Positions 1 through 19,759 of a stretch of 64,000 nucleotides of DNA are shown here, one piece after another. The notes under the pieces were generated by a model, which searched no databases, was not told where the DNA came from, and saw nothing but the letters and a program-made list of their open reading frames with translations. Position 1 is the first letter of the stretch, and every line of letters begins with the position of its first letter. The stretch comes from Burkholderia ubonensis subsp. mesacidophila (lineage in GTDB: Bacteria; Pseudomonadota; Gammaproteobacteria; Burkholderiales; Burkholderiaceae). The stretch is from NCBI RefSeq assembly GCF_002097715.1, contig NZ_CP020737.1:3534001-3598000 (forward strand). The letters are read 5' to 3'. The translations under genes and the position numbers were made by a program.

Positions 1-1293
1 ATGGAAGCCATCACGGCGAAGCGCCGCACGATCGTCGCGCGCGGCGCGCGCCGCCACGCGCAAGACTGGCTCGATGCGCTCGAAGCCCGCCTGTACGTCG
101 CCCTCCCGCAGCCCGTGCTGATCGACCGCACCGATTACGAGCGGCTCGGCGCGGCGGCCCGCGCGTTGTTGTCCGCGCAACTGAAGATCGCCCGGCACCT
201 GGTGAGCACCCAGTCGCGCGAAGCGCTGCTGCGGCGCTTCCGGGTGCCCGACCACATGGCGCGCTTCGTCGACTGGGATAAATTCCAGACGGGCGCGATG
301 ACCGTCGCGCGCATGGACATCGTGCCGACGGCCGACGGCTACCAGTTCTGCGAATTCAACGTGCATTCGGCCGTCGGCGGCGCGGAAAGCCACGGCTGCT
401 ACCTGCACTTTTGCCGCGCGCTCGGCCTGCCCGCCGACAGCCAGGCACGTTCGCCCGACTACCATCTCGCGCAGATGTACACCCGCATCGCGCAGGCGCG
501 CGGCATCGAGCGGATCGTGATCCTCGATTCCGTGCACCATGCGTCGCTCGGCTATCCGCGCCACGACGATCTCGCCGCGCTGCTGCGGCAGATGAATCCC
601 GGCTGCGAGGTCGCGAATCACCGCGAAGACACCTACCCCGAAGCATGGCTCGCCCGCGAGCTGGGCGAGCGCACGCTCGTGCACCGGATGTTCACGTACG
701 ACGAGATCACCGACGGCTGCGCGTTCCTCGCGCGGCTTGCCGACAGCGGCGCGGTGATCACGAACACGTTCGAAGCGGAAATGCGGATGAGCAAGCTATG
801 GCTTGCGCTGCTGTGGGACGACCGGTACGGCGCGCTGCTCGACGATGCCGAGCGGGAAGCGGTCAGGCGCTACGTGCCGCCGACCTACGCGCTGACCGAG
901 GACAACCTGGGCGCGTTCCTCGCCGAGCGTGCGCAATGGGTCTTCAAGTTCAACCACTCGTACGGCGGCGAGGGCGTGCTGATCGGCGCATCCACGTCGG
1001 CGGACGAGCTGGAACGCGCGATTCGCGAGAAAGGGATCGAGAACTGGATCGTGCAGCGCTTCGTCGAGGCGGAAACGCTCACCATGCCCTACGACGACAG
1101 CGACGCCGTCGCGCCGCACCATCTCGTGCTCGGCCTGTACGTGCACGACGGCCATACCTGCGGCTTCTTCGTGCGCGGCAGCGCGTCGTCGCGCGTGGTC
1201 AACCTGTCGAGCGGCGCGGGCAAGATGGCGTGGGGCCTCGTGCTCGACGCGCCGGCGCGTCAGCACTTCATCGATCGGATTCGACAGCTGTAG
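1..1293 (+). CDS. Circularly permuted ATP-grasp family ligase
   Basis: A 430-residue protein with the layout of permuted ATP-grasp ligases, which use ATP to join a carboxylate to an amine or other nucleophile. Visible marks are FCEFNVHSAVGG (116-127), a glycine loop VFKFNHSYGGEGV (314-326) and NWIVQRFVE (348-356). It begins with ATG at the first base of the window, so a longer upstream start cannot be excluded and its promoter is not visible. It faces the large leftward operon and its last 26 bases overlap the 3' end of the first exporter gene. I infer that it belongs to the biosynthetic cluster as an amide- or ester-forming enzyme; substrate unknown. Confidence 0.7.
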   Translation: MEAITAKRRTIVARGARRHAQDWLDALEARLYVALPQPVLIDRTDYERLGAAARALLSAQLKIARHLVSTQSREALLRRFRVPDHMARFVDWDKFQTGAMTVARMDIVPTADGYQFCEFNVHSAVGGAESHGCYLHFCRALGLPADSQARSPDYHLAQMYTRIAQARGIERIVILDSVHHASLGYPRHDDLAALLRQMNPGCEVANHREDTYPEAWLARELGERTLVHRMFTYDEITDGCAFLARLADSGAVITNTFEAEMRMSKLWLALLWDDRYGALLDDAEREAVRRYVPPTYALTEDNLGAFLAERAQWVFKFNHSYGGEGVLIGASTSADELERAIREKGIENWIVQRFVEAETLTMPYDDSDAVAPHHLVLGLYVHDGHTCGFFVRGSASSRVVNLSSGAGKMAWGLVLDAPARQHFIDRIRQL

Positions 1294-2725
1294 CCCGGCC
1301 GGGGCCGCGTGCGGCTTGCCGCGCGCGGGCCGCCTGCCGGACGTGCAGCGCGGCGAACGCCAGCGCCATCGCCGCGAGAAAGCCCGCCATGACCGCGAAA
1401 GTCTGGCCGAACGCCAGCACGAAGCCCGCGCGGTCGTCCGCCGCGCCAGGCGCGCCGCCCAGCCCGTCGAGATAGGCGGCATGGCGGATCCCGACGAGCG
1501 CCGTCAGCAGCGCCACGCCGATCGCCCCGCCGAGGCTGCGCGAGATGTTGAAGAGAATCGACGCGGACGGCGCATCGTGCTTGACCGTCGCCGTCGTCGC
1601 GAGCACGCCGAGCGGCGTCAGCATCAGCGTGAAGCCGAGCCCGCGCAGCAGCTGCGCGACGACCACCGACGCATAGCTGAAATCCGCCGCGGCCATGCTC
1701 CACATCCACGCGCTGACGCACGACAGCAGCGCGCCCACGACGACCAGCACGTGAACGTGCACACGTTTCAGGATGCGCGGGATGAAGCCGAGGATCGACA
1801 GTTGCACCGCACCGCCGTACAGGATCACGAGGCTGATCTGCGCGGGCGTGTAGCGCTGCAGCTCGATCAGGAAATACGGCACGAGAAAGTAGGTGCCGAA
1901 GACCGCGGCGCCCGTCGTCACGTTCGCCGCGCACGCGATCCGCAGTTGCCGGTTCGCGAGCAGGCCGAGCGCGACGAGCGGGTGCGCGCTCGCCCGCTCG
2001 CGCACGACGAACGCCGCCAGCGCGACGAGCGCCATGCCCGTCAGCACCGCGATCTCGCGCGACGCGAACCAGCCGTAGCGGTTGCCTTCCTCGAGCACGT
2101 ATTGCAGGGTGCCGAGCCCGATCACGATCAGCACGAGGCCCGGCCAGTCGACCCGGGTCTTCTCGCGGCCGGCGGCGGGTTCGTCGCGCAGCCCGCTCAT
2201 CATCAGCGCGAGCCCCACGAGCCCGATCGGCAGGTTGAGGTAGAAGATCGACGCCCAGCCGAAATGCGCGGTCAGGAAGCCGCCCATCACCGGCCCGAGC
2301 ATCGGCGCGAGCGTCACCATCGCGCCGAACAACGACATCGCGCGGCCGTGCTCGCCGTCAGGCAGGCGCGTCATGATCAGGCTGTACGCGAGCGGCATCA
2401 GCGCGCCGCCCGCGACGCCCTGCAGCAGCCGGCAGCCGACCAGCATCTCGAAACTCGTCGACTGCGCGCACAGCACCGACGCCGCCATGAACATCAGGCT
2501 GAACACCTGCGCATAGCGCCGGTAGCCGAGCCGCCGCGACAGCAGCCCGGTCAGCGGCAGCGTGACGATCTCGGCGATCAGGTAGGCCGACGAGATCCAC
2601 GACGCATCGGCGAGCGGCGCATGCAGCGCCGCCTGGATGGGCCCGATGGCCGCGTTGGTGATCTGGATGTCCATGATGGTCATCAGGACCGCGACGATGC
2701 TGCCGATCACACTGCGCCACGCCAT
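1268..2725 (-). CDS. MFS exporter of the DHA2 (EmrB/QacA) family, copy 1
   Basis: A 485-residue integral membrane protein of the 14-helix DHA2 drug:H+ antiporter type. It starts MAWRSVIG, followed by MTIMDIQITNAAIG in helix 1, and carries the loop RRLGYRRYA between helices 2 and 3. It has the family's usual length. It is the last gene of the leftward operon, separated by only 2 bases from its paralogue upstream, and its end overlaps the convergent ATP-grasp gene. The C-terminus ends in an Arg/Ala-rich tail. Probable role: efflux of, or self-resistance to, the cluster product. The substrate is not deducible. Confidence 0.85.
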   Translation of the reverse strand: MAWRSVIGSIVAVLMTIMDIQITNAAIGPIQAALHAPLADASWISSAYLIAEIVTLPLTGLLSRRLGYRRYAQVFSLMFMAASVLCAQSTSFEMLVGCRLLQGVAGGALMPLAYSLIMTRLPDGEHGRAMSLFGAMVTLAPMLGPVMGGFLTAHFGWASIFYLNLPIGLVGLALMMSGLRDEPAAGREKTRVDWPGLVLIVIGLGTLQYVLEEGNRYGWFASREIAVLTGMALVALAAFVVRERASAHPLVALGLLANRQLRIACAANVTTGAAVFGTYFLVPYFLIELQRYTPAQISLVILYGGAVQLSILGFIPRILKRVHVHVLVVVGALLSCVSAWMWSMAAADFSYASVVVAQLLRGLGFTLMLTPLGVLATTATVKHDAPSASILFNISRSLGGAIGVALLTALVGIRHAAYLDGLGGAPGAADDRAGFVLAFGQTFAVMAGFLAAMALAFAALHVRQAARARQAARGPGRATAVESDR

Positions 2726-2727
2726 GC

Positions 2728-4182
2728 TCAACGCTCCCCGGAATGCACGTTCGCGCGCCGTGCGAACCATGCGATGCAAAAGGCGGCGCCGATCGCCGCC
2801 ACCACCGCGCCCATCCAGCCGAACGCGTGCGCGAACACCGTCGCGCCGCTGCCCGGCGACACCACGCGCGCCGCCCATGCCGCATCGATCCCGGCCGCCG
2901 CGAGCGTGACGCCGAGCGAGCCGCCGAGGCTGCGCGACATGTTGTACAAAATCGACGCGCTCGCCGCCTGCGCGGGCTCGGCCACCGTCGTCGCCGCCAC
3001 GCACAGCGGCGCGAGCAGCAGCGACAGCCCGACGCCGCGCGCGATCTGCGCCGCCGCCACGCCCGCGCCGGTGTAGTGCTCGACGAGCGCGCTCCAGCCG
3101 AACGTGCCCGCCGCGAACAGGCCCGCGCCGAGCGCGATCGTGATGAACAGCGGCAGCCGCCTGACGATCGCCGGCGTGAACCACAGCACGACGAACTGCG
3201 TCGCGCCGGTCAGCATGATGACCTGCCCGATCTGCTGCGGCCCCGCGCCGCGCACCGAGATCAGGAAATACGGAATCGCGAAGTAGCTGGCGAAGGTCGC
3301 GCCGCAGGCCAGCGCGTTCGCGCCGCACGCCATCACGAACTGCGGGTTGCGCAACAGGCCGCGGTCGACGAGCGCGCGCGTGCTGTGCAGCTCGCTGCCG
3401 ACGAAGCCGACCAGCATCAGCCCGGCGAGCGAGAGCAGCGCGACGATCAGCGGCGAATCGAGCCAGCCGAGGCCGCGCCCTTCCTGCAGCACGAACTGCA
3501 GCGCGCCGAGCGCGACGGCGAGCGTCGCGACGCTGCGCCAGTCGACCGGCTGCGCGCTCGCATCGGCGGCCGGCAGCCGGCGCAGGCCGGCATGCGTCAG
3601 CACGAGCGCGAGCGCGCCGATCGGCACGTTGATGTAGAACAGCGCCCGCCAGTCGAACAGCGCGGCCAGCGCGCCGCCCACGGCCGGCCCGAGCGTCGGC
3701 GCGAGCGCCATCGTCGCGCCGAACACCGCGAACGCGCGCGCATGCTCGTCGCGCGGCAGGCGCTGGATGATCAGCACGTACGCGAACGGAATCAGCGCGC
3801 CGCTCGCGAGCCCTTGCGCGGCACGCAGCACCGCGAGCCCGGTCATGCCGGTGGCGAACGTGCAGAGGATCGACACGGCGACGAACAGCAGGATGAAGCA
3901 GCGCGCATAGCGCGCGCTGCCGAGCCGGGCCAGCAGCATGCCCGACACCGGCAGCATCGCCGCCTCGCCGAGCAGGTAGGCCGACGACAGCCACGCGCCC
4001 GCGCCCAGCGGCGCGTGCACGCCCGCCTGGATCTGCGCCATCGCGGCGTTCATCATCTGCAGGTCCATCACGCTCATCAGGACCGCGACGATCCCCCCCA
4101 GCACCGCCAGCCAGCCTTGCCGCGCGAACGCCGCATCGCGCGGCGCGGCGCCCGGCGCCGCGTCGAGTTCGAGATCGGCCAT
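2728..4182 (-). CDS. MFS exporter of the DHA2 (EmrB/QacA) family, copy 2
   Basis: A 484-residue paralogue of the next gene, with the same helix 1 pattern (MSVMDLQMMNAAMAQ) and the same overall helix spacing. It starts with ATG at 4182, one base from the stop of the ornithine-cyclodeaminase-like gene, so the two are probably translated from one message. Two full DHA2 transporters in tandem are unusual; they may export different intermediates, or one may give resistance. A heterodimer is less likely, since DHA2 proteins normally act alone. Confidence 0.85.
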   Translation of the reverse strand: MADLELDAAPGAAPRDAAFARQGWLAVLGGIVAVLMSVMDLQMMNAAMAQIQAGVHAPLGAGAWLSSAYLLGEAAMLPVSGMLLARLGSARYARCFILLFVAVSILCTFATGMTGLAVLRAAQGLASGALIPFAYVLIIQRLPRDEHARAFAVFGATMALAPTLGPAVGGALAALFDWRALFYINVPIGALALVLTHAGLRRLPAADASAQPVDWRSVATLAVALGALQFVLQEGRGLGWLDSPLIVALLSLAGLMLVGFVGSELHSTRALVDRGLLRNPQFVMACGANALACGATFASYFAIPYFLISVRGAGPQQIGQVIMLTGATQFVVLWFTPAIVRRLPLFITIALGAGLFAAGTFGWSALVEHYTGAGVAAAQIARGVGLSLLLAPLCVAATTVAEPAQAASASILYNMSRSLGGSLGVTLAAAGIDAAWAARVVSPGSGATVFAHAFGWMGAVVAAIGAAFCIAWFARRANVHSGER

Positions 4183-4183
4183 G

Positions 4184-5098
4184 TCAGCCCACCGCTTTCA
4201 GCAGGTAGGCGACCGTCGCCAGGTCGAGAAACGCGTGGCCCGTCGAGCTGAACACGGTGGTGCGACGCCGCAGGTCGGCCACCGGCTGCGCCGCGAGGCG
4301 GCCGAGATCGAGCGCGTCGCGGTGCAGTCCGCCCGCTTCCTCGATCGCGGTCGGCACGTCCTCGACGATCAGCACCGCGTCGCGCAGCAGCGGGTTCGGC
4401 AGCTCGCGCGATTCGGTCGTGTGGCCGCCCATGCAGTTGATGTGCACGCCCGGCCGCAGGTTCGCGAAGCGGCCGATCGGCCGGTCCGACGCGGTGGCCG
4501 TGCCGATCACGTCCGCGCCGTCGATCGCGTCGTCGACGGAACGCGCGCGCACGATCGCGACGCGCGGGCCGCACTGCGCCGCCACGTCGCCCGCGAACGC
4601 GGCGAGCCGCGCCGGATCGCGCGCGTACAGCCGGATCTCGCGGATCGGACGCACCGCGCAGACGGCCGCGACCTGCTGGCGCGCCTGCACCCCCGCGCCG
4701 ATCACGGCGAGCACCTCGGCCTGCTCGGCCGCGCAGTAGCGCGTGACGAGCGCCGAGACCGCCGCGCACTTCAGGTTGGTGACGGCCGCGCCGTCGAACA
4801 GCCCGAGCAGCTCGCCGGTGGTCGCGGAAAACGCCGCGACGAGCGCGTGGATGCGCGGCAGCACGTCGTCCGGCGCGCGTTCGAAGATGGTCGCAACCTT
4901 GTTGATGTAGAGCCCGTGCCGCGCGCTCACCGCCGGCATCGACAGGCACAGGCCCGCGTCGCCCGCCGGCACGATCTCGCGCGGCGGCACCGTGATGTGC
5001 CGGTGCCCGCTGCCGCGCACCAGTTCGTCGAGTTCGTCGATCAGGTCGCCGAGCTTCGCGGCCGCGTACAGCGCATCGTAGGAATAAGGCGGCTTCAA
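4184..5098 (-). CDS. Ornithine cyclodeaminase / mu-crystallin family protein
   Basis: 304 residues with the NAD(P) Rossmann motif GAGVQAR (134-140) and the family pattern INKVAT (65-70) and GAAVTNLKCAA (103-113). The family deaminates ornithine to proline, reduces ketimines, or (SbnB) makes 2,3-diaminopropionate precursors. The segment that normally holds the catalytic Asp (GADxPGK...EL) reads GGHTTESREL here, so true ornithine cyclodeaminase activity is doubtful and a ketimine reductase or dehydrogenase role is more likely. The start is TTG at 5098: GGAG lies 6 bases before it, while the nearby ATG at 5102 is in another frame. Fifth gene from the end of the operon... upstream gene ends 45 bases away. 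Confidence 0.8.
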   Translation of the reverse strand: MKPPYSYDALYAAAKLGDLIDELDELVRGSGHRHITVPPREIVPAGDAGLCLSMPAVSARHGLYINKVATIFERAPDDVLPRIHALVAAFSATTGELLGLFDGAAVTNLKCAAVSALVTRYCAAEQAEVLAVIGAGVQARQQVAAVCAVRPIREIRLYARDPARLAAFAGDVAAQCGPRVAIVRARSVDDAIDGADVIGTATASDRPIGRFANLRPGVHINCMGGHTTESRELPNPLLRDAVLIVEDVPTAIEEAGGLHRDALDLGRLAAQPVADLRRRTTVFSSTGHAFLDLATVAYLLKAVG

Positions 5099-5143
5099 GC
5101 ATGTCTCCGTCAGAAGGGCGGCGCCACGGGCGCCGCCGCAGAA

Positions 5144-6043
5144 TCAGACCGTATCGCGGCCGAACAATGCATCCATCTGTTTGTTGCCGAATTCGACGAG
5201 CATGTCGTCGTTCGTTAACTTGAAGAAAACAATCGACTGCCTGGGCTGGTCGAGCAGGACCACGCGGTGCTCGGTCGACAGATACTCGCGGTTCGACCAG
5301 TGCGACAGCAGGTCGCCGATGTTGACGAGGAAATGATCGACGTCGCCCAGCCCGGGTGAAACCCATTCCCGGCCGCCGATGCGCACCTCGATGCCCTGCG
5401 AGGTCTGGGTCAGCAGCGAAATCAGGCTGCTGTCGGTATGCGCGCCCATGCCCTGATCGTGTTCGATCGGGCCGGTGAAGGCCGGGTAAAGATGCGAGCG
5501 CAACGAATCGGCGGACTGGTCGGTGCGGATCGTGAAGAAATCGCGCGGCAGGCCGAGCGAAATCGTGAAGAGGCGCATCAGCCGGTCCGACAGCGCGTCG
5601 CAGGCACGATAGTACGCCTTGAGCGCGCCGCGCAGTTCATTTCCGACTGCGCCGTCGGGGAACGGCAGCGCCTGCCCGTCGTCGAGCACGAGCTTGCCCG
5701 CGCTGTACTTCTCCACGTAGTCGGACGGCTTGCCCTTCACGCCCATGAACGCGTACGCGTTCTCCTCGAGCAGGCCGCTGTAGCCGTAAGGGGTGTATTC
5801 GTCGCTGCCGAACGTGAAGCCGGTCGGCAGCTTGCAGCGCAGCTTCTCGGCGAGCGGCAGCTCGAAGAAGCGCTTCGACGCGGCCTGCGCGCCGACGATC
5901 ACGTCGCGCGGCACGCCGTGCCCGCAGACGGTGAAGAAGCCGACGCTGCGGCAGGCGTCGTCGATCTGCCGGGCGACGTCGCGCTCGCCGGCCGGGTCGC
6001 CGGAGAGCGACGGCGTCAGGTCGATCAGGGGAATCGCGCTCAT
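5144..6043 (-). CDS. Isopenicillin N synthase-like Fe(II)/2OG oxygenase, copy 1
   Basis: 299 residues of the IPNS / DIOX family. The N-terminal DIOX_N region (IPLIDLTPS, then GFFTVCGHGVP) is followed by the jelly-roll with iron ligands H202 and D204 (AHTDSS), H259 (STEHRV) and the co-substrate motif R268-Q-S270. All metal and 2-oxoglutarate residues are therefore present, so it should be an active hydroxylase, desaturase or ring-forming oxidase. It overlaps the desaturase gene by 4 bases (ATGA). It clearly resembles the second copy at 14526-15494 along its whole length, including the shared segment YTPYGYSGLLEENA. Substrate unknown. Confidence 0.88.
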   Translation of the reverse strand: MSAIPLIDLTPSLSGDPAGERDVARQIDDACRSVGFFTVCGHGVPRDVIVGAQAASKRFFELPLAEKLRCKLPTGFTFGSDEYTPYGYSGLLEENAYAFMGVKGKPSDYVEKYSAGKLVLDDGQALPFPDGAVGNELRGALKAYYRACDALSDRLMRLFTISLGLPRDFFTIRTDQSADSLRSHLYPAFTGPIEHDQGMGAHTDSSLISLLTQTSQGIEVRIGGREWVSPGLGDVDHFLVNIGDLLSHWSNREYLSTEHRVVLLDQPRQSIVFFKLTNDDMLVEFGNKQMDALFGRDTV

Positions 6044-7014
6044 AGCGGTCTCCAATAGGTTCGGTCGATATCGTCGAGAATCTCGCGCAGGATGCTCACG
6101 CGCCCGGCCGGCGCGGACAGCAGCCCGCCCCGCGCGGCGTTGGCCGCCCGGTACGCGTCGTCCTGCAGCAGGATCTCGTGCACCCGGCGCAGGTTCCAGA
6201 ACGGCACGCCGGGAAACAGGTGGTGGGTCAGATGCCAGGTCTCGCCGTGCATGCCGAAGAAGCAGCGCTCCCACCAGCACGGAAAGCGATTGCGGGTGAT
6301 CTCCAGCTCGGAGCGGTCCTCGCCGAACAGCCGGTAGTGCTCGGTGATCTCGAGAAACCACGCGAGCACGTGCGACACGGTGAGAAACGGCACCAGCCAG
6401 AACCAGACATAGCCGAGCGGCCCGGCGAGCCACGACAGCGCGGCCGCGACGACGGCCTGCGCCGCCGCGAGCCGCGCGAGGTCGCCGCGCTTGCCGGCCA
6501 TGTACGCGATGCGGCCCGTCACCAGCTCGCGCACGTTGCCGAGCGCATTGCCGAGCAGCAGCGTCTTGAAGAAGAAGCCGCGCAGGAACGCGCGGCTGCT
6601 CGTCACCGCCAGCAGGCCGCTCTCGCGGAAGCCGACGTAGTCGGGGTCGTGCTGCGGGTCGCCGAGATGGCCGTGATGCGCGGGCACGTGGATCGCCCGG
6701 TAGTACTCGTCGCTCTGGAACATCGCGAATCCCGCCGGCCAGCGCGTCAGGAACCGGTTCAGCCAGCGCGCCCGCGCGAGCGACAGGTGGACGCCGTCAT
6801 GCAGCAGCGTGACGAGCGCCCGCTGGCGCGAGCCGATCACGAGGATCGCGGCCGGCGCGAGCCACGGCCAGCGCGCGCCGCCCGCCGCCGCAAGCCCGAT
6901 CGCCGCGTAGTCTCCGAGCACCGCGAGACCGCCGCGCCAGTTGTTCGACTGATAAAGCGGCCGGACCTGTTCGCGGATCGACGCGGCAAACCGGTGCTTG
7001 CGATAAGCCGACAT
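6040..7014 (-). CDS. Membrane fatty-acid-desaturase-like di-iron enzyme
   Basis: 324 residues with the three histidine clusters of membrane desaturases/hydroxylases: HDGVH (72-76), HVPAHH (109-114) and HLTHH near residue 260, between hydrophobic helices (about 30-65 and 190-225). These ligate a di-iron centre that uses O2 and electrons from a ferredoxin or reductase. No electron donor is encoded in the cluster. Overlaps its neighbours on both sides (4 bases and 1 base), so it is translationally coupled. It may desaturate or hydroxylate a fatty-acyl chain or an amino-acid side chain of the product; the natural substrate cannot be read from the sequence. Confidence 0.82.
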   Translation of the reverse strand: MSAYRKHRFAASIREQVRPLYQSNNWRGGLAVLGDYAAIGLAAAGGARWPWLAPAAILVIGSRQRALVTLLHDGVHLSLARARWLNRFLTRWPAGFAMFQSDEYYRAIHVPAHHGHLGDPQHDPDYVGFRESGLLAVTSSRAFLRGFFFKTLLLGNALGNVRELVTGRIAYMAGKRGDLARLAAAQAVVAAALSWLAGPLGYVWFWLVPFLTVSHVLAWFLEITEHYRLFGEDRSELEITRNRFPCWWERCFFGMHGETWHLTHHLFPGVPFWNLRRVHEILLQDDAYRAANAARGGLLSAPAGRVSILREILDDIDRTYWRPL

Positions 7015-7913
7015 CAGTTGCCCACCTCGATCACGTGGTGGATCCGGTTGCCCTTCTTGTAATAGTCGAGCGACAGGTTCACCGTGCCGTCGTGGTCGCG
7101 GATCTGCGATTGCGCGATGCCGTAGTAGTCGAGCCATTCGGCGTAGTGCTCTTCCGCGTGGTACTGGTACTCGTAATGGCGGATCGGGCGCGCCGACGCC
7201 TCGCCGGGCACGATGCGCCGCGGGTCCGTCGCGCCGTGCGCGACGCCGAACTCCACCTCGTTCGACAGCATCACCATCACCATGTCGGTGTCGAGGTTCA
7301 CCTTCACGCAGAACGAATAGTCGTCGAGCAGCGCCTGGTAGTGCTCCTCGCGGATCGCCACGTTGTAGTTGGCCGGAATGTTGGTCACCATGTCGCGCGG
7401 CGCGACGCCGTGGTCGCGGCAGTACGCGGGCACGTCCGCGATCACCGGGTAGCCGCCCTCGATGTTGCGGTTCGGCCCGTAGACGTTCGCGACGAACGGC
7501 GTCGCCGTATCGAAGTGGATGCACTTCGTCGTCGAGTATTCGCGGCCGTCCACCTTGCCGTCGTGCGAGAAGTTCTTGTTGTTCTGGTAGCCGTCGACGT
7601 CCATGTACGCGAGCGTGAAATCGCGCTTGGTCACGTTGTAGCGCGCGAATTCGACGTGCTGCATCGCCTTGCGGAAGATGTCCTCGTACAGCGCATAGAC
7701 GAGATCGCGGTGTGCGTCGAGCTCGAGCTGGCGGCTCGCGAGCAGCGCGCCCGCGCCGTACACGACGACGAAGCCGTTGTCGCGCTCCATCAGGCGCGCG
7801 GCGGCCTCGGTCAGGCCGGGCGACGGCACGAAGCGGCCGTCTTCGAACGTGACGTCGCCGGTGCTGACGTCGATGAGGGATTGGCGAAGCTTGTCGGATT
7901 GCAGGCGGGTCAT
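7014..7913 (-). CDS. Unrecognised protein with H-x-D...H pattern, copy 1
   Basis: 299 residues; I do not recognise the family. It is clearly homologous to the protein at 12597-13508. Blocks shared by both are KC(I/V)HFD.ATPF.AN.YGP, NI.GGYPVI, NIP.NYNVA and GVAH.AT followed by RPIRH.EYQ. The invariant H133-F-D135, H226 and Arg at 242/245 follow the H-x-D...H...R order of Fe(II)/2-oxoglutarate dioxygenases, so I infer a metal-dependent oxygenase, but no named domain is evident. Start at ATG 7913 just after a gap of 35 bases from the oxoamine synthase gene; its stop overlaps the desaturase start by one base. Confidence 0.72.
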   Translation of the reverse strand: MTRLQSDKLRQSLIDVSTGDVTFEDGRFVPSPGLTEAAARLMERDNGFVVVYGAGALLASRQLELDAHRDLVYALYEDIFRKAMQHVEFARYNVTKRDFTLAYMDVDGYQNNKNFSHDGKVDGREYSTTKCIHFDTATPFVANVYGPNRNIEGGYPVIADVPAYCRDHGVAPRDMVTNIPANYNVAIREEHYQALLDDYSFCVKVNLDTDMVMVMLSNEVEFGVAHGATDPRRIVPGEASARPIRHYEYQYHAEEHYAEWLDYYGIAQSQIRDHDGTVNLSLDYYKKGNRIHHVIEVGN

Positions 7914-12596: not shown

Positions 12597-13508
12597 TCAG
12601 TGAGCCAGGTCGACGATCCGGCCGTCCGGCACGGTCTCGCCGCGGTGATAGCGCGCCACGTTCGACGCCACCGCGGGCGTGGCCGTGACGGTCTGCAGCC
12701 GGTAGAAGTCGTACCAGCGCGCGAGGCTCGACGTGTCGGCGAACTGGTATTCGATGTGGCGGATCGGACGCTTGCCCGGACGCTGCGCGTCGGTCAGGCT
12801 CGGCGTCGTGGCCGCGTGCGCGACGCCGCCGTTGACTTCGTTGAACAGCACGAGCATCACGATGTCGCGCTGCAGGTCCTGACGCACGACGATCGAATAG
12901 TGCTCGAGGATCGGGTCGACGAATTCCGCCTTGACCGCGACGTTGTAGTTGTTCGGGATGTTCTCGACGAGCTGGGCCGGCGTGATGCCGCGGTCGCGGC
13001 AGAACGCGCGGGTGTCGCAGATCACCGGATAGCCGCCGCTGATGTTCTCGTACGGCCCGTAGAGATTCGCGATGAACGGCGTGGCCGCGTCGAAGTGCAC
13101 GCACTTGGTCGTGACGAATTCGCGCGCGTCGGTGTGGTCGCCGTTCGGCGTGAAGCTGCGGTTCACGTTGTAGCCGTCGGCGTCCATCGCGGCGATGCGG
13201 TCGTAGTCGATCGACGGCATGTCGGCGCGCGCGGCGTCGAACGACGCCGACGCGGCGCGAAACAGCGCTTCGTAATAGCGCCGCGCCATTTCGGCGGCCG
13301 CCGCGTCGTGCACGCTCAGGCCGTGCTGCGCCAGCATCGCCTGCGCGCCGTAGCAGACGGCGAAGCCGGCGCCGCGGTCGACGAGCTCGACGAGGCGCTC
13401 GGCAAGGCGGCCGTCGGCGGGCGTCAGCACGCCGTCCGCGAGGCGGGTCGGATAAGCGCCGATGTCGATGAAGGCGCGGGTCACATCAGTCGTTTCGAGT
13501 GGCTTCAT
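12597..13508 (-). CDS. Unrecognised protein with H-x-D...H pattern, copy 2
   Basis: 303 residues, paralogue of 7014-7913; family not recognised. The same conserved positions are H138-F-D140, H231 (GVAHAAT) and Arg 247/250 in RPIRH. The first 120 residues are much less alike than the rest. The H-x-D...H...R order suggests an Fe(II)/2OG-type oxygenase, but this is inference only. The ATG at 13508 has no strong ribosome site. A 125-base gap with an AT-rich site lies upstream, the largest gap in the operon, so an internal promoter here is possible. Confidence 0.72.
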
Positions 13509-13633: not shown

Positions 13634-14476
13634 CTAGCGCGCGGCCTGGCTCGCGTAGAACGCCAGCATGCGGCGCGCCTTGGTGATGAAAGGCGGTGCG
13701 ATCACTTCGCCGTCGCGAATCGCGAAGCCCGTCTCGGCGGCTTCATACGCGGCGATGGACGCCTGGTACTGGTCGATCAGCTCGTCGCGCACCGAGAACA
13801 CGCGGTTGATCGGATCGACCTGGCGCGGATGGATGGCCGCCTTGCCGGTAAAGCCGTAGGCCTTCGCGGCTTCGCATTCCTTCTGGAAGGCATCCATGTC
13901 GACCACGTCGAACGAGTTGGTGTCGATCGCCGGAATCCGGCGGCGGGACGCCGCGATGCACATCCGGGCGCGCGCATAGTCGATGAACGTGGCGTTCGCG
14001 TGGTACATCTCGGCCGCGAGGTCGGCCTGCCCGAAACACAGGCCGTCGCTGACCGCCGCGATCGCGTCGGCGCGGTCCACCGCCTCGACCGTCTCGATGA
14101 ACGCGTAGATCTTCGGCGGCTTCGGCAGCGTCGCGAACAGCGACCGGTACACCTCGACCTCCTTCGGGTGCGTGATCTTCGTCACCAGCACGTACTCGAC
14201 GTAGGTCTTGCCGCTCTCGTACAGCGCCTTGAGGAACTGGATGTCGGCAATCCCGTCGTAGCTCGTCAGCACGTTCACGCGCATGCCGAACCTGAGGCCC
14301 GCCGCCGTCAGGTCGCCGACGTCCTGCTCGGCCAGGTGCCGCCGCGCCTTGTCCTTCGAATGCGCATGCACGGAATCCTCCAGGTCGAGGATGACCCGGC
14401 TGGGCGCAACGAGCCCCGCTTTCTTGCGCAGGTCGTCGATGCGCAGTGCGGGCGTGTACAGAAAGCTGATATCCAT
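13634..14476 (-). CDS. CitE/HpcH-type aldolase/lyase (malyl-CoA or citramalyl-CoA lyase-like)
   Basis: 280 residues, TIM-barrel of the HpcH/HpaI/CitE family. Motifs: VILDLEDSV (28-36) with the metal-binding region, RVNVL (66-70), IETVEAV (127-133), FGQADLAAE (148-156) and GKAAIHPRQV. These enzymes cleave or form malyl-, methylmalyl- or citramalyl-CoA thioesters with Mg2+. The conserved order with a MaoC hydratase in the same operon resembles the citramalyl-CoA lyase plus itaconyl-CoA hydratase pair of itaconate catabolism, but no CoA-transferase is seen. Direction (cleavage or condensation) unknown. Confidence 0.82.
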   Translation of the reverse strand: MDISFLYTPALRIDDLRKKAGLVAPSRVILDLEDSVHAHSKDKARRHLAEQDVGDLTAAGLRFGMRVNVLTSYDGIADIQFLKALYESGKTYVEYVLVTKITHPKEVEVYRSLFATLPKPPKIYAFIETVEAVDRADAIAAVSDGLCFGQADLAAEMYHANATFIDYARARMCIAASRRRIPAIDTNSFDVVDMDAFQKECEAAKAYGFTGKAAIHPRQVDPINRVFSVRDELIDQYQASIAAYEAAETGFAIRDGEVIAPPFITKARRMLAFYASQAAR

Positions 14477-14525
14477 GTCGAACCTCGTCGTGAAATCAAC
14501 CCCGGCGTCCGGGATCGCGAAAGCG

Positions 14526-15494
14526 TTACTGCGGTTGCGGTTCCGGGCTGCGGCCGAACAGCGCGTTCATCTTGTCCAGCGAGAACTGCTTGTAGACCAC
14601 CGGCGCGTAGCGCGCCGCCTCCGTCCTGCAGAACTTCGGGAAGCACTCGATCAGCGCATCGTCGTTCGCGAGCTTGAAGAACACGATCGACTGGCGGGCA
14701 GCCGCCCGCAGCGCGACGCGATGCGGCGTCGACACGTACACGTCGTTCGACCAGCGCGCCATCAGGTCGCCGATGTTGACGATGAAATGATCGAGGCCGC
14801 GCATCGACGGAGTCAGCCATTCGCCCGCGCGGGTGCGCACCTCGATGCCCGGCACCGTATGCGTGAGCAGCGTGATGAGCGTGCCGTCGGTGTGCTCGCC
14901 CATCCCCTGGTCGTTGGCGAATGCGGCGTCGACTTGCGGATAGCGCTGCGAGCGCAGCGAATCGTTCGACCGGTCGGTGCGCACCAGGAAGAAATCGCGC
15001 GGCAGGTCGAGCGCGATCGTGAGGAGCGCGGTCAGGCGCTGCGCCACTTGCTCGCACGCCGCGAAATAGCGCTTGAGCGCACGGCGCAGGTCCGCCCCTT
15101 CGTCGCCCTCGGGAAACGGCAGCGGCGCCGCGTCGTCGAGGATCAACCGCCCCGTGCTGAATTTCTCGACGTAGTCGGCCGGCTTGCTGTCCTGCCCCAT
15201 GTACGCGAACGCGTTTTCCTCGAGCAGGCCGCTGTAGCCGTACGGCGTGTAGTCGTCGAGCCCCGACGTGATGCCGGTCGGCAGGCGGCTCGAACGCTTC
15301 GCCGCGTCGGGCAGCGCGAAGAAGCGCTGCGACGCGCGATAGGCGTCGTCGAACACGGCGCGCTCGATGCCGTGCCCGCACACCGTGAAGAAGCCGACGT
15401 CGCGGCACGCGCGGTCGATCCGCATCGCGACGTCGCGCTCACCGGCGGGCCCCGTCGCGGCCGCGCCCAGGTCGATCAACGGAATGTCCTTCAT
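14526..15494 (-). CDS. Isopenicillin N synthase-like Fe(II)/2OG oxygenase, copy 2
   Basis: 322 residues, paralogue of the oxygenase at 5144-6043 with about half of the residues visibly shared. Ligands H201 and D203 (EHTDGT), H258 (STPHRV) and R267-Q-S269 are intact. It is 23 residues longer at the C-terminus (CRTEAARYAPVVYKQFSLDK inserted before the shared MNALFGR end). Intact active sites in both copies argue for two separate oxidations and not a decayed duplicate. Lies between the M24 and lyase genes with gaps of 71 and 49 bases. Confidence 0.88.
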   Translation of the reverse strand: MKDIPLIDLGAAATGPAGERDVAMRIDRACRDVGFFTVCGHGIERAVFDDAYRASQRFFALPDAAKRSSRLPTGITSGLDDYTPYGYSGLLEENAFAYMGQDSKPADYVEKFSTGRLILDDAAPLPFPEGDEGADLRRALKRYFAACEQVAQRLTALLTIALDLPRDFFLVRTDRSNDSLRSQRYPQVDAAFANDQGMGEHTDGTLITLLTHTVPGIEVRTRAGEWLTPSMRGLDHFIVNIGDLMARWSNDVYVSTPHRVALRAAARQSIVFFKLANDDALIECFPKFCRTEAARYAPVVYKQFSLDKMNALFGRSPEPQPQ

Positions 15495-15565
15495 GCTCTC
15501 CTCGCAAAGAAATCGGGTCCATCCTGATGCCGGCCGCCGCCCGGCGGGGCGGCGGCACGCGCGGC

Positions 15566-16780
15566 TCAGCCGAGCGCGAACGGATCGTCGATGCTCTTCG
15601 CCGGCTGCGTGAACCAGCGCGGGCCGTCCGCCGTGATGTACGCGTGATCCTCGTGGCGAATGCCGAATTCGTTCGGCACGCACAGCATCGGTTCGATGCT
15701 GAAGCACATCCCTTCGTCGAGCACCGTACGGTCGCCGCCGACGAGGTACGGCCCTTCGTGGATGTCGAGACCGATGCCGTGGCCGGTGCGGTGCGGCACG
15801 CCAGGCAGCGCGTAGCCGGGGCCGTAGCCGGCCGTCACCAGGTAGTCGCGCACCGCGCGATCGCCTTCTTCCGCCGCGATGCCCATCCTGACGCGCTCGA
15901 ACGCCACCGCCTGCGCGCGCTTCTCGTGCGCCCAGACGTCGCGCTGCCGCGCGCTCGCTTCGCCGAACACGTAGGTGCGCGTGATGTCGGAGTGATAGTC
16001 GTGAAGCTGGCAGCCGGTGTCGATCAGCACCATGTCGTTGCGCTCGAGCCGCTTCGGCGCCTTGACGCCGTGCGGGAACGCGGTGTCCGGACCGAACAGC
16101 ACGATGCAGAACGTCGAGCCGCGCCGCGCGCCGACCGCGCGATGCGCGGCGTCGATGAAATCCGCCACCTCGTCGGTGCCGATGCCGTCGCGCAGGATCG
16201 CGGCGGCCGCCTGGTGCACCCGCAGCGTCATGTCGTTCGCGCGCTGCATCAGCGCCAGCTCCGCCGCCGACTTGCGCAGCCGGCAGCCGCTCGTGACCGG
16301 CGCGGCGCTCTTGATGCGGATGCCCGGGGCGCGCTCGCGGATGCCTTCGTACATGAAGTACGGCGCCGACTCGTCGAAACCGAGCGTGCCGTTCGCGCAG
16401 CCGGCCTGCTCGATGACGTTCGCCAGCAGCCGGTACACATCGGCGTCCTCGTCCCAGCAATGCATGTCACCGGGAATCTGCAGCATGCCGGTGAACGTGC
16501 CGCGCTCGAACGCGGGCACGATGTAATGCAGCGGCCCCGACGCCGGAATCAGCGCGCCCGCCAGCCGCTCGCTGCGGCGCCACGCGACGCCCGTGAAATA
16601 CAGCAGGTTCGTGCCCGCTTCGATGTAGATCGCGTCCAGCCCGTGCTGCTTCATCAGCGCCTGCGCGCGCGCGACCCGCGCCGCGTGTTCGGCGGGCTGG
16701 ATCGGCTCGACGCCGCCCGTCATGTCCTTGAGTTTCGCCAGTTCCGCTGCGGCGTTCGATCCGCCGATGCCGATTGCCAT
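15566..16780 (-). CDS. M24 (creatinase / Xaa-Pro aminopeptidase fold) enzyme
   Basis: 404 residues: creatinase-type N-domain (about 30-165) and pita-bread domain. Metal ligands can be placed at D254 (VLIDTGCQ), D265 (YHSDITRT), the histidine of HRTGHGIGLDIHEGP, and Glu in SIEPML and HEDHAYI. H237 (FPHGV) fits the substrate histidine. The family includes Xaa-Pro dipeptidases, creatine amidinohydrolase and ectoine hydrolases, so it may release an amino acid from an amide or hydrolyse a C-N bond of an intermediate. No signal peptide. Confidence 0.85.
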   Translation of the reverse strand: MAIGIGGSNAAAELAKLKDMTGGVEPIQPAEHAARVARAQALMKQHGLDAIYIEAGTNLLYFTGVAWRRSERLAGALIPASGPLHYIVPAFERGTFTGMLQIPGDMHCWDEDADVYRLLANVIEQAGCANGTLGFDESAPYFMYEGIRERAPGIRIKSAAPVTSGCRLRKSAAELALMQRANDMTLRVHQAAAAILRDGIGTDEVADFIDAAHRAVGARRGSTFCIVLFGPDTAFPHGVKAPKRLERNDMVLIDTGCQLHDYHSDITRTYVFGEASARQRDVWAHEKRAQAVAFERVRMGIAAEEGDRAVRDYLVTAGYGPGYALPGVPHRTGHGIGLDIHEGPYLVGGDRTVLDEGMCFSIEPMLCVPNEFGIRHEDHAYITADGPRWFTQPAKSIDDPFALG

Positions 16781-16850
16781 GTCTCGTTTCCCTTCTACTT
16801 TTTTGAGATAAAAAATGCGGTCTTCCGCCCGAGGTTCGCGGCGCGCTGCG

Positions 16851-17357
16851 TTACGTCAATGCGGCGCGCTGCGGAATCAGGATAGTACGTTTGAACGTGA
16901 TGACGGGTGCGCCGTCCTGCTTGGCGCCGGTCGTGCGAACCGTCACGATGCCTTGCCCGGCCCGCGACCGGGACAGCCGCTTGTCGAGGATTTCCGTCTC
17001 GGCGTACAGCGTGTCGCCGACGAACACGGGCGCGAGCAGCCGCACCTCGTCCCAGCCGAGATTGGCGATGCCTTTCTGGCTGATCGTGTGCACCGTCATC
17101 CCGTTGACGATGTTGAACGTGACGAGGCTCGACACCAGCAGCTCGCCGAATTCGGTGCGGTTCGCGTATTCGCCCTCGATGTGCAGCGGATGCTGGTTCA
17201 TCGCGATCAGCGATTGCCAGACGTTGTCGGTGGCGGTGATCGTGCGCCCGGGGCGGTGCTCGATCGTCTCGCCGACGACGAAGTCGTCGTAGTGGAACCC
17301 CTTGTCCTCGCGATAGCGGTTCGGCGAGATGCGCGTGTAGCCAGCGTGTCTGTCCAT
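16851..17357 (-). CDS. MaoC-like hot-dog-fold hydratase/dehydratase
   Basis: 168 residues, single hot-dog domain of the MaoC / (R)-enoyl-CoA hydratase superfamily, with FHYDDFVVGE (21-30), TATDNVWQ (41-48), MNQHPLH (53-59) and SLVTFNIVNGMTVH. The usual G-D-x-N-P-L-H motif has Asn in place of Asp, which I recall as common in the mesaconyl/itaconyl-CoA-type subgroup. It should hydrate or dehydrate a C4-C6 acyl-CoA. First gene of the 15-gene leftward operon; a sigma-70-like promoter and three operator-like repeats precede it. Confidence 0.82.
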   Translation of the reverse strand: MDRHAGYTRISPNRYREDKGFHYDDFVVGETIEHRPGRTITATDNVWQSLIAMNQHPLHIEGEYANRTEFGELLVSSLVTFNIVNGMTVHTISQKGIANLGWDEVRLLAPVFVGDTLYAETEILDKRLSRSRAGQGIVTVRTTGAKQDGAPVITFKRTILIPQRAALT

Positions 17358-17380
17358 GTGCGGTAGAGCCTCGGAAATTA

Positions 17381-17475
17381 TTGTCCAACTTAAATTTTTG
17401 ATGCCGCGTTCGAGAATCTAGATCAGGCCGAAATTGAGGTCAAGCTAAAATTTTTACCGGACTGAAATTTATGTC
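17381..17475. promoter_or_regulatory. Leftward operon promoter with three operator-like AT repeats
   Basis: On the minus strand TTGACC (17443-17438), 17 bases, TAGATT (17420-17415) make a good sigma-70 promoter for the MaoC-led operon. Three AT-rich repeats similar to CTAAAATTTAAGTG flank it: AACTTAAATTTTTG at 17387-17400 (inverted copy, 12 of 14), CTAAAATTT at 17445-17453, and CTGAAATTTATGTC at 17462-17475 (11 of 14). One is downstream of the start point and two are upstream of -35, an arrangement that suits repression by a dimeric XRE protein. Operator role is inferred. Confidence 0.6.
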
Positions 17476-17526
17476 CAATGTAAAACGTGTGCGCGGCACG
17501 TGAACCGCCCGGGCGACGCTGCGCGG

Positions 17527-17532
17527 TACAAT
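17527..17532 (+). promoter_or_regulatory. Possible -10 element of the XRE-cupin gene
   Basis: TACAAT lies 115 bases before the ATG of the regulator gene. No convincing -35 is visible at 16-18 bases (TGAACC at 17501 is 20 away), so this is a weak call. It leaves a leader of about 105 bases. Confidence 0.3.
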
Positions 17533-17646
17533 GCGCCGACCTCGTCTTGCGAACGATCGTGCTACGTGCGATTCGCGGAAAGGAACGTCCTGGCGACTGC
17601 ACCGCCTCCTCCGCTCGCCTTCCACTCGTTGCCACGAAGGAAATTC

Positions 17647-18474
17647 ATGGATTCAGACATCATGCATATCGGCCTGCGCATTCGCCGCCTGCGCCGGGAA
17701 TCGAAGAAAACGCTGCTGGAAGTCGCCACCGAAGCCAAGCTGTCGATCGGCTTTCTGTCGCAGGTCGAGCGCAATCTCACGGGCATCTCCATTTCGTCGC
17801 TCGTCAACGTCGCCAAGGCGCTGAACGTGCCGCTCGGCGTGCTGCTCGACCAGCCGCGCCAGGAGCAGCCCGATTCGCACCAGGGCAGCCGCGAGTCGTA
17901 TTCGGTCGGCGAGACGTCGCAGCGCTACGAGCGGCTCTCCACCACCTTCGACGGCAGCCTCATCAACGCCCTCAAGGTCCAGATGACGGAAGGCTACTGC
18001 TCGGAATGGGTCGCGCACGGCGGCGACGAATTCGTCTACATCCTGTCCGGGCAGATCCGCTATACCGTCGGCAAGAAGGACTACCTGCTGTCGCCCGGCG
18101 ATTCGATCCACTTCGACGCGCACAAGCAGCACCGCGTCGCCAACGTGGGCGCCGGGCCCGCGGAACTGATCGTGGTCGGTACGCTGCCGCTGTTCGACGA
18201 CAGCCGCTCCGAATTCGTGTCCGCGTCGGCCGAATTCGCGCCGCCCGGCAGCGATGCCAAACCGCCGGTGGGCGAGCCGCGCGTGAGCCGCCGCGCGCCG
18301 GCGCAAAAGCGCGGCCGCGCCGCGGAGCCGGCGCCGTCGGGCACGGCGCGGCCCGCCGTCAAGAAAGCCAGGGCAGCGGACAAGGCCGCCGCCGCGAAGC
18401 CGCGCGCGTCCGCCGCCAAGCGCTCGGCCGACGCCGCCCCCGCACGCAAGACCGCCGCACGCACGAAGAAATAA
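17647..18474 (+). CDS. XRE-family regulator with cupin domain and Lys/Ala-rich tail
   Basis: 275 residues. Residues 9-65 form an XRE helix-turn-helix (IRRLRRESKKTLLEVA, then LSIGFLSQVER); a C-terminal cupin (about 110-180) includes EWVAHGGDEFVYILSG and LSPGDSIHFDAH, the usual ligand-sensing domain of XRE-cupin regulators. Residues from about 215 on are a low-complexity Ala/Lys/Arg/Pro tail like histone H1 or AlgP, odd for this family. ATG 17647 is chosen because GAAGGA stands 6 bases before it and the HTH begins at once. It diverges from the biosynthetic operon and probably controls it through the nearby repeats. Confidence 0.85.
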   Translation: MDSDIMHIGLRIRRLRRESKKTLLEVATEAKLSIGFLSQVERNLTGISISSLVNVAKALNVPLGVLLDQPRQEQPDSHQGSRESYSVGETSQRYERLSTTFDGSLINALKVQMTEGYCSEWVAHGGDEFVYILSGQIRYTVGKKDYLLSPGDSIHFDAHKQHRVANVGAGPAELIVVGTLPLFDDSRSEFVSASAEFAPPGSDAKPPVGEPRVSRRAPAQKRGRAAEPAPSGTARPAVKKARAADKAAAAKPRASAAKRSADAAPARKTAARTKK

Positions 18475-18548: not shown

Positions 18549-18580
18549 TTGACTAAAATTTAAGTGACACTTAATTTTAG
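18549..18580 (+). promoter_or_regulatory. Promoter with overlapping inverted-repeat operator
   Basis: TTGACT (18549-18554), 17 bases, TAATTT (18572-18577) form a sigma-70-like promoter for the threonine-dehydratase-like gene. An inverted repeat covers it: CTAAAATTTAAGTG (18553-18566) and CACTTAATTTTAG (18568-18580), identical arms but for one missing A. The same half-site recurs three times in front of the divergent biosynthetic operon. A protein bound here would cover both -35 and -10, so repression is likely. Confidence 0.65.
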
Positions 18581-18709
18581 CCATACTTAAACCCGTTCCT
18601 GACGGACAGACCCGAACCGACACCGGCCCAACACGGCGCGGCGGGCGTCCTTCGCCGCGTGCAACGCGCGGGCGAAGGAAGACGGAACCATATTGAGAGG
18701 CAAGGTCGT

Positions 18710-19759
18710 ATGTCGAGTCGAAACGCAGCCGCCCTCCCTTGCGCATGGCCAACGCTCGGAGACATTCGCCAGGCCGCCGCGCGGCTGCGCGGCAAGGTGC
18801 TGGAAACGCCGGTCTGGCAGTGGCGCACCGGGCCCGCCGTCGCGACGCTCGCGCCGGCCACCGAAGTCTGGCTCAAGCTCGAGCTGTTCCAGATCACCGG
18901 CACGTTCAAGCTGCGCGGCGCGCTCAACTGCATCGAGGCGCTGAGCGCCGCCGAGCGCGCGCGCGGCGTGGTCGCCGCGAGCGCGGGCAATCATGCGGTC
19001 GCGGTCGCCTATGCGGCGCGCGTGTCGGGCACGCAGGCGACGCTGCTGATGTCGCGCCATGCGAGCCCCGCCCGCATCGACGCGTGCCGAAGCTTCGGCG
19101 CAAACGTGATCCTCACCGAGGACATTCACGAAGCCTTCGCGCAAGCCCGCGAAATCGAGCTGCGCGACGGGCGGGCGATGGTGCCCGCGTTCGACGGCCC
19201 GCGCATCGCGGAAGGCACCGGCACGATCGGGCTCGAATTGCTGCGGCAGATCGACGGGCTCGACGCGGTGATCGTCCCCGTCGGCGGCGGCGGCCTGAGC
19301 GGCGGCATCGCCGCGGCCGTCAAGCAGCTGGCGCCGCACTGCGCGGTGTACGGCTCGGAACCGGCGGGCGCCGACACGATGCACCGCAGCTTCGCGTCGG
19401 GCCGCCCCGAGCGCCTGCTCGCGATGACATCGATCGCCGACAGCCTCGGCGCGCCGCACGCGTCCGCGTATACGTATGCGCTGTGCCGGCGCTATCTCGA
19501 CGACGTCGTGCAGATCGACGACGCGCAGCTGGCGCAGGCGGTCTACTGGCTGTTCCGCGACATGAAGCTCGCGCTGGAGCCGGCGGCCGCGGCCGCGACC
19601 GCCGCGCTGTTCGGGCCGCTGCGCGAACGGCTCGCCGGCAAGCGCGTGGCGCTCATCGTCTGCGGCTCGAACCTGACGCCGGACGCGTTCGCGCGCTATG
19701 CGGCGATGGGGATGCCGGCCGCGCGCGCACCGGAGCCGCGCATCGAGGCGGCGGCATAA
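18710..19759 (+). CDS. Threonine dehydratase-like PLP enzyme
   Basis: 349 residues, fold-type II PLP enzyme. PLP lysine K67 is in GTFKLRGALN, the phosphate/carboxylate region is SAGNHA (91-96) and the glycine loop is VGGGGLSGG near 187. There is no ACT regulatory domain, so it is of the catabolic threonine/serine deaminase, serine racemase or 3-hydroxyaspartate dehydratase type. ATG at 18710 is preceded by AAGG; an upstream GTG at 18659 is less likely. It shares the operator repeat with the leftward operon, so it likely supplies a 2-oxo acid (such as 2-oxobutyrate) or an amino acid to the pathway. It converges on cca. Confidence 0.85.
   Translation: MSSRNAAALPCAWPTLGDIRQAAARLRGKVLETPVWQWRTGPAVATLAPATEVWLKLELFQITGTFKLRGALNCIEALSAAERARGVVAASAGNHAVAVAYAARVSGTQATLLMSRHASPARIDACRSFGANVILTEDIHEAFAQAREIELRDGRAMVPAFDGPRIAEGTGTIGLELLRQIDGLDAVIVPVGGGGLSGGIAAAVKQLAPHCAVYGSEPAGADTMHRSFASGRPERLLAMTSIADSLGAPHASAYTYALCRRYLDDVVQIDDAQLAQAVYWLFRDMKLALEPAAAAATAALFGPLRERLAGKRVALIVCGSNLTPDAFARYAAMGMPAARAPEPRIEAAA

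Follow-up and report, generated by a model that had tools for sequence, protein, structure and literature searches.

What does a bacterial locus make when it combines oxoamine synthases, oxygenases, a ligase and exporters and holds no nonribosomal peptide synthetase (NRPS) or polyketide synthase (PKS) genes? The question is raised by the left end of the window analysed here, a 64,000-nucleotide stretch of Burkholderia ubonensis subsp. mesacidophila (contig NZ_CP020737.1, positions 3,534,001 to 3,598,000), together with 20 kb of its left flank. Coordinates are window positions, with negative numbers lying left of window base 1. We propose, tentatively and at a little under an even chance, that a locus of ~29 kb, from pepP at -9291 to 19759 and under one XRE-cupin operator, makes a pseudopeptide or aminoketone without NRPS or PKS. 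The proposal draws on the gene content, the conserved linkage, the two-lineage make-up of the genes for alpha-oxoamine synthase (AOS) and the undescribed protein X, a shared operator-like motif and the insertion site.

Gene content and conserved linkage

Open frames, GC content by codon position and family scans placed 15 leftward genes within 1268-17357, spaced -4 to 125 bp apart, beside a converging ATP-grasp gene, an XRE-cupin gene and a threonine-dehydratase-like gene (Table 1). This bears out the layout given by a first-pass annotation made from the sequence alone, and the enzymes named there (two AOS, two isopenicillin N synthase (IPNS)-like oxygenases, a membrane di-iron enzyme, LeuA- and CitE-type enzymes, an M24 enzyme and two exporters) are all real. 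However, that list omitted MaoC, a reductase of the ornithine cyclodeaminase (OCD)/mu-crystallin type, an alpha/beta-hydrolase (ABH) and the paralogous pair X1/X2. The gene set is not a product of chance, because B. ubonensis LMG 20358 carries identical genes in identical order, with 93-98% protein identity. No description of the cluster was found in the open-access literature, judged by titles and abstract beginnings.

A scan of genome contigs found nine loci, one in B. ubonensis, seven in Corallococcus and one in a Burkholderiales metagenome-assembled genome (MAG). The annotation had held that scattering of the genes in relatives would speak against a cluster; in the relatives found, the genes stand together. 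X travels with oxoamine synthases in two phyla. Of 65 Burkholderia genomes, two had X1, namely the source genome of the window and B. ubonensis. A two-row X profile found matches in 2 of 398 genomes sampled across a phylum, and a 13-row profile in 3 of 399 sampled across an order, the own genome being counted in both samples; these counts rest on related-locus searches and genome samples only. X was not found in the plasmid collection, and the viral contigs searched held no relatives.

The cluster of G413, a genome from another family, has single AOS, X and IPNS genes with GntB-like, ATP-grasp, MaoC, M24, CitE, LeuA, ABH, OCD and major facilitator superfamily (MFS) genes; it further includes another HpcH/HpaI-type gene and a MATE exporter (L018:6841-7800, L017:5994-7523). 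The seven Corallococcus loci keep an X-ABH-AOS-OCD-IPNS-ATP-grasp core, and the MAG locus reads IPNS-CitE-MaoC-X-AOS-ABH-OCD-MFS. The ATP-grasp gene is kept in G413 (36%) and in 7/7 Corallococcus loci (44-46%), and each of the ten other X-bearing loci examined has OCD. In all seven Corallococcus loci the core is followed by a second ATP-grasp gene, whose copy in L023 has the L-amino-acid-ligase domain PF18603, which points to a peptide-like product. Next to the Corallococcus core (L023:3244-9716), the opposite strand carries genes for a ketosynthase, a YiiD-type thioesterase, an aldo/keto reductase and a zinc-dehydrogenase, and an acyl-CoA dehydrogenase gene is also present; the ketosynthase gene has the matching position in 7/7 loci.

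Table 1 Features of the window, with the family matches on which their names are based.
Feature	Position	Strand	Basis or remark
ATP-grasp carboxylate-amine ligase candidate	1..1293 (start base 1 or -26)	+	weak PF03738 GSP_synth, 24.9 bits vs cut-off 29.3
MFS2, DHA2-family exporter	1268..2725	-	TIGR00711 285 bits, cut-off 230 exceeded
MFS1, second DHA2-type exporter	2728..4182	-	PF07690; TIGR00711 218 bits, slightly below cut-off 230
OCD/mu-crystallin NAD(P)-dependent reductase	4184..5143 (frame, precise start uncertain)	-	PF02423 151.6 bits
IPNS1, IPNS/ethylene-forming enzyme (EFE)-type Fe(II)/2-oxoglutarate (2OG) oxygenase	5144..6043	-	PF14226+PF03171
Membrane di-iron hydroxylase, GntB relative	6040..7014	-	PF00487; NF041365 311 bits vs cut-off 380
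X1, undescribed family	7014..7913	-	without Pfam/NCBIfam match
AOS1, type 1	7949..9175	-	NF005697 504 bits, cut-off 342
AOS2, type 2	9207..10400	-	NF005697 465 bits
ABH, HSL-type alpha/beta-hydrolase	10457..11374	-	PF07859 191 bits
LeuA, 2-isopropylmalate-synthase-type, 384 aa	11425..12579	-	NF002086 600.5 bits, cut-off 532
X2, X1 paralogue, type 2	12597..13508	-	42% identity to X1; without family match
CitE/RipC-like aldolase or lyase	13634..14476	-	PF03328; NF038242 140 bits vs cut-off 375
IPNS2, Fe(II)/2OG oxygenase paralogue	14526..15494	-	60% to IPNS1; PF14226+PF03171
M24 prolidase-like protein	15566..16780	-	PF00557 183 bits, PF01321; 392 bits to PDB Proline dipeptidase
MaoC dehydratase/hydratase, RipB-like, first gene of the operon	16851..17357	-	PF01575; NF038241 202 bits vs cut-off 340
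Divergent promoter region	17358..17646	.	operator-like sites 17385-17398 and 17441-17454
XRE-cupin regulator	17500..18474 (probable start 17647)	+	PF01381+PF07883
Operator-like sites before dehydratase-like gene	18549..18568	.	1 and 2 mismatches to pattern
Threonine-dehydratase-like pyridoxal phosphate (PLP) enzyme	18659..19759	+	PF00291 243.7 bits; also present in B. ubonensis
BTH_s1 Burkholderia small RNA	28870..29073		139.8 bits

Two lineages of AOS and X genes

Maximum-likelihood trees of AOS and of X both showed two lineages, with a split support of 100/100. Type 1 comprised window copy 1, B. ubonensis copy 1 and G413, and type 2 comprised window copy 2, B. ubonensis copy 2, Corallococcus and the MAG; AOS2 shares 72-77% identity with the Corallococcus AOS. 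Because these trees place the two window copies in separate lineages, the Burkholderia locus looks like a composite of a G413-like operon and type-2 X and AOS genes. In six genomes searched, GntB-like relatives at 54-100% identity were confined to the type-1 genomes, with matches of only 25-33% in the two Corallococcus searched and none in the MAG. The IPNS tree joined copy 1 with G413 (95/95) and placed copy 2 with both of them (87/90), apart from Corallococcus. The OCD tree, in which the G413 row ends at the locus border, had no well supported branch, and the ABH tree put the window copy with G413. Some rows in the trees have long branches. Five of the seven Corallococcus loci entered the AOS, X and IPNS trees and three of the seven the OCD and ABH trees.

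The X proteins belong to no Pfam or NCBIfam family and have no credible PDB match. Across 13 X rows, an HxD...H pattern and an R are invariant. The best PDB sequence match of X1, a TAL repeat, was rejected, as it disappeared with the 13-row profile, and weak Pfam matches of the X rows (NusA_N in 7/13 rows, best E 0.011; others in fewer) were taken as chance. Foldseek searches with both X models gave no match at E <= 0.001, the weak VIA rows being a hint only, and an hhalign comparison of X with IPNS found no relation.

A Rhizobium lusitanum plasmid (L040:7277-18488) carries a set of AOS, CitE, MaoC, OCD and short-chain dehydrogenase (SDR) genes, with an ATP-grasp gene ~13 kb away (near 29 kb), and the stretch had no X, IPNS or GntB-like matches. 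It appears to encode an unannotated relative pathway and, because it pairs AOS with CitE-MaoC, it supports the view that CitE and MaoC supply the acyl-CoA for AOS. A DmpG-like aldolase gene and a carbamoyltransferase gene lie upstream on this plasmid, which also has an MFS-like gene (named by eye).

The recurrent company of OCD bears on a different product. An OCD gene goes with AOS in every X-bearing locus examined and also in R. lusitanum, even in the Corallococcus loci, where CitE and MaoC were not found nearby. This would fit synthases that make a simple oxidised aminoketone, acting as a signal or as a precursor to pyrroles, pyrazines or cyclic imines, instead of a ketomethylene pseudopeptide; OCD would then reduce the cyclic imine that the aminoketone forms. 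The idea is also in line with CqsA and 5-aminolevulinate synthase being among the AOS relatives, and with TraR/tra genes in the neighbourhood of solo AOS relatives on two rhizobial plasmids. However, CitE, MaoC and ATP-grasp genes occur with AOS in Burkholderia and R. lusitanum, CitE and MaoC do so in the Burkholderiales MAG, and an L-amino-acid-ligase-type gene follows the Corallococcus core; we consider a simple aminoketone conceivable though doubtful.

Relatives of AOS1 were found in 126 PLSDB records, mostly from rhizobia, of which 93 were typed as conjugative. On the three rhizobial plasmids read, their surroundings include tra/TraR genes (L042, L043) or a gene for a response regulator (L043, L044), and these relatives could make aminoketone signals. 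Two Rhizobium plasmids (L009:11869-13017 and L010) carry a short LeuA-type gene with 79% DNA identity (81% protein in L009) to that of the window, a similarity unusual for such distant hosts; this gene stands apart from any cluster gene found. A LeuA-like DNA match in Rhizobium CCGE531 has no annotated cluster neighbours.

Operator-like motif, insertion site and presumed relic loci

The 20 kb left of the window holds genes for a GDSL lipase, a PepP-type M24 protein, a peptide-type ATP-binding cassette (ABC) importer (its second permease named from tblastn and by eye only) and a porin, as well as flagellar genes named by eye. The ATP-grasp gene forms the left edge of the cluster and is divergent from the porin/peptide-ABC operon. 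The first-pass annotation had the window starting inside the cluster; this holds only for at most 26 bp of the ATP-grasp gene, and the left boundary it could not place is the divergent promoter between ATP-grasp and porin. By a shared operator motif, the locus extends further left to pepP.

This operator-like motif, with the core GACTAAAATTTTAGTC, was derived from words of the MaoC promoter common to the pepP upstream stretches of other Burkholderia and the G413 promoter. In the 84 kb of window and left flank, a scan allowing one mismatch gave seven matches, all within four intergenic regions. They lie ahead of pepP (at -7343), in the porin/ATP-grasp gap (at -271, -265 and -254), in the MaoC/XRE-cupin gap (at 17385 and 17441) and ahead of the dehydratase gene (at 18555). 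With two mismatches allowed there were ten matches, still only in those four regions, and five simulated controls gave means of 0.0 (<=1 mismatch) and 0.2 (<=2). The 64 kb window held a single exact occurrence of the pattern, and 100 shuffles held none. The porin/ATP-grasp site, which had no part in deriving the pattern, holds the exact palindrome GACTAAAATTTTAGTC. B. ubonensis has motif sites at the matching four places, and in G413 they stand ahead of the PepP gene and in the AOS/XRE-cupin gap (two at <=1 mismatch, control mean 0.0; five at <=2, control mean 1.4). Upstream of pepP in other Burkholderia, 23 of 49 stretches matched exactly, 42 with at most one mismatch and all 49 with at most two, against 17 of 384 pieces of 2.5 kb drawn at random from the 84 kb, a draw that did not avoid the pepP and dehydratase sites. 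The promoter region showed no signal in strand folding (z 0.06).

Because the motif occurs in four intergenic regions and nowhere else in the 84 kb, it suggests that pepP, the importer, the ATP-grasp gene, the 15-gene operon and the dehydratase gene form one regulon. From the conserved company of the regulator gene and the sites, we infer that the XRE-cupin protein binds these operator-like sites. A regulon joining PepP, an importer and a prolidase-bearing operon could also be catabolic, importing and breaking down peptides or amino-acid derivatives under a PuuR-like regulator, with the porin, the dehydratase, OCD and the lyase also taking part. The EutB/EutC/EutD-like scores (all below cut-off) and the catabolic nature of the RipB and RipC families fit such a role. 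However, a breakdown pathway would hardly need two AOS, two DHA2 exporters and three oxygenases, or five with X1/X2 included, and AOS condensations are described as irreversible in the available part of PMC11906848, which leaves catabolism improbable.

The XRE-cupin gene had been called dedicated to the cluster, a description that fails against its surroundings elsewhere. Some M24 match to pepP was present in 65/65 Burkholderia genomes, and by our own count a full-length match at >=68% identity was present in 54 of the 65, own genome included. We surveyed 49 upstream stretches (48 of 2,500 bp and one of 606 bp) and three larger ones (G017, G035, G021), skipping G020 and G057, where pepP lies close to a contig end, and leaving out distant or partial matches except G063 (pepP in two pieces, among the 49) and G021. 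The XRE-cupin gene adjoins pepP, without the cluster, in 48 of the 49 stretches, the remaining one being that which ends at 606 bp. Further, cca was present in 47 of the 49, and neither the dehydratase gene nor MaoC in any (0/49 each), 47 of these stretches reaching cca. Three genomes compared by DNA had pepP, then directly the XRE-cupin gene, then cca. The regulator is thus not dedicated, and its presumed operator now fronts the cluster. By comparison with these empty sites, ~24.7 kb separates pepP from its usual neighbour, and the dehydratase gene represents either another insertion or another loss. In G413, the cluster likewise adjoins PepP, peptide-ABC genes and XRE-cupin; this set looks like one island, because among three genomes of its family (all of one genus) only G413 matches its PepP (E 1e-150) and XRE-cupin (E 1e-40).

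In G017, G035 and G021, the PepP search also revealed another M24 gene near pepP, with 82-89% identity to the cluster M24 gene. A decayed piece of MFS2 lies beside it in two of these three loci, and within 20 kb no cluster genes beyond M24 and the MFS2 piece were found at E 1e-3. In our own reading, these loci would be relics of the cluster; the search for relics was not exhaustive. The M24 gene is truncated in G017 and intact in G035 and G021, and in G021 it is intact while the adjoining pepP is a C-terminal fragment (L096:62-415). The ratios of nonsynonymous to synonymous substitution, computed from the listed dN and dS and including the time before pathway loss, were 0.156 (G035) and 0.145 (G021) against the window copy and 0.130 between the two. 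This suggests that M24 is useful without the pathway, and its retention in loci that have lost nearly all else hints at a role in self-protection.

Proposed pathway and comparison with known systems

Our best guess at the product, made by analogy, is an NRPS-free pseudopeptide, perhaps of the ketomethylene type, because the CitE aldolase, MaoC, oxoamine synthase and ATP-grasp enzyme resemble ketomemicin biosynthesis. The substrates and the order of steps are likewise predicted. The LeuA-type enzyme, lacking its regulatory domain, would boost a branched 2-oxo acid, which the CitE-type aldolase would join to an acyl-CoA; dehydration by MaoC and a reduction would then give a 2-alkyl-succinyl-type CoA. 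Decarboxylative condensation of this CoA ester with an amino acid, catalysed by AOS1 and AOS2, would yield a 5-amino-4-oxo acid, which is a ketomethylene dipeptide isostere. This acid would be oxidised by the GntB-like enzyme, by IPNS1/2 and perhaps by X1/X2, the ATP-grasp enzyme would add an amino acid through an amide bond, and two MFS pumps would export the product. Protection of the producer may fall to the M24 prolidase-like protein. Of the carrier-free, exported small molecule predicted in the annotation, what stands is an NRPS/PKS-free, apparently co-regulated, AOS-centred locus with exporters.

Both AOS exceed the cut-off of the PLP-enzyme model NF005697, whose name is 'hypothetical protein', and fall below cut-off on the BioF, Kbl, SPT and ALAS models. 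The LeuA-type protein passes the 2-isopropylmalate synthase (IPMS) cut-off of NF002086, with 462 bits to 3rmj and other IPMS models below cut-off, and has no C-terminal leucine-regulatory domain (TIGR00973 566.5 vs 598.7, profile covered to 376 of 494). IPNS1 and IPNS2 have DIOX_N and 2OG-FeII_Oxy domains with HxD...H and RxS, and H202xD204, H259 and R268xS270 of IPNS1 are invariant in 11 rows; the best PDB match of IPNS1, 9ovh, is titled an ancestral ethylene-forming enzyme. The M24 protein has creatinase-N and M24 domains and is a close prolidase relative, below the NF040821 cut-off. The ATP-grasp match to GSP_synth is weak, lying under the gathering score and appearing in two of ten rows, and there was no PDB match.

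Several findings weigh against the proposed pathway. No amidinotransferase was among the Pfam/NCBIfam matches listed for the 18 proteins, and no clear enoyl reductase was found in the locus. Equivalog cut-offs for GntB, RipB and RipC were not reached. The L-amino-acid-ligase-type gene of Corallococcus had no match in the window or 20 kb leftward, LeuA, CitE and MaoC were not seen within ~10 kb either side of the Corallococcus loci, and the MAG locus had no ATP-grasp match. In addition, the IPNS tree gives no support to IPNS2 as a type-2 gene.

A bolder version, which we think unlikely, is a new product class of proteobacteria and myxobacteria, in which two parallel AOS/X/oxygenase sets would make two different aminoketone halves, to be joined by one ATP-grasp enzyme into a hybrid pseudopeptide, X would be a new non-haem-iron family, and Xaa-Pro peptidases would be the target, with M24 (and pepP) under the shared operator conferring self-resistance; in this version M24 is kept in the relics after pathway loss because it protects. 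X is in any case an undescribed protein family, and the Xaa-Pro peptidase link suggests a directly testable target class. The candidate operator and its regulator offer a handle, since deleting a single gene might be enough to turn on its production.

The annotation could name no matching cluster. A partial precedent exists in ketomemicin (ktm) of Actinomycetota, for which the available part of PMC11943689 lists an aldolase, a PLP amino-acid C-acyltransferase, a dehydratase, an ATP-grasp ligase and an amidinotransferase. Like this locus, ktm is NRPS-free, and aldolase, AOS, dehydratase and ATP-grasp agree at the domain level, the ATP-grasp match being weak. However, ktm clusters come from other phyla, the likeness is one of domains, and this locus adds X1/X2, IPNS1/2, GntB-like, LeuA-type, OCD, M24 and MFS genes and two AOS sets. 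The product might be a known arphamenine/ketomemicin-class compound whose proteobacterial genes are unreported, as domain-level counterparts of four of the six ktm genes (one of them the weak ATP-grasp) are present and arphamenines come from the Gram-negative Chromobacterium violaceum (same source, available part). The lack of an amidinotransferase, the additional X, IPNS, GntB-like and LeuA genes, which imply a more oxidised product, and the finding of no literature link from arphamenine to genes, judged by titles and abstract beginnings, make this highly improbable.

The closest solved AOS relative is actinobacterial: 8XHA (AOS1 330 bits, AOS2 293 bits), which is Alb29 of albogrisin and uses L-glutamate according to the available part of PMC11906848. 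The guanitoxin enzyme GntB shares a desaturase-like family with the membrane protein of this locus, which stays below the equivalog cut-off, and no other guanitoxin families were among the NCBIfam matches listed. The available part of PMC9239090 describes DynZ/DynY of dynaplanin as performing a carrier-free PLP condensation with arginine, in a five-gene cluster with an N-acyltransferase, and mentions no aldolase or oxygenase. Arginine features in both ketomemicin and dynaplanin (PMC9239090, available part), and this, together with the GntB-like enzyme and the EFE-type oxygenase, makes arginine a possible type 1 substrate here. The dynaplanin cluster was missed by the cluster-finding program antiSMASH (PMC9239090, available part), and clusters without NRPS/PKS genes can escape such programs.

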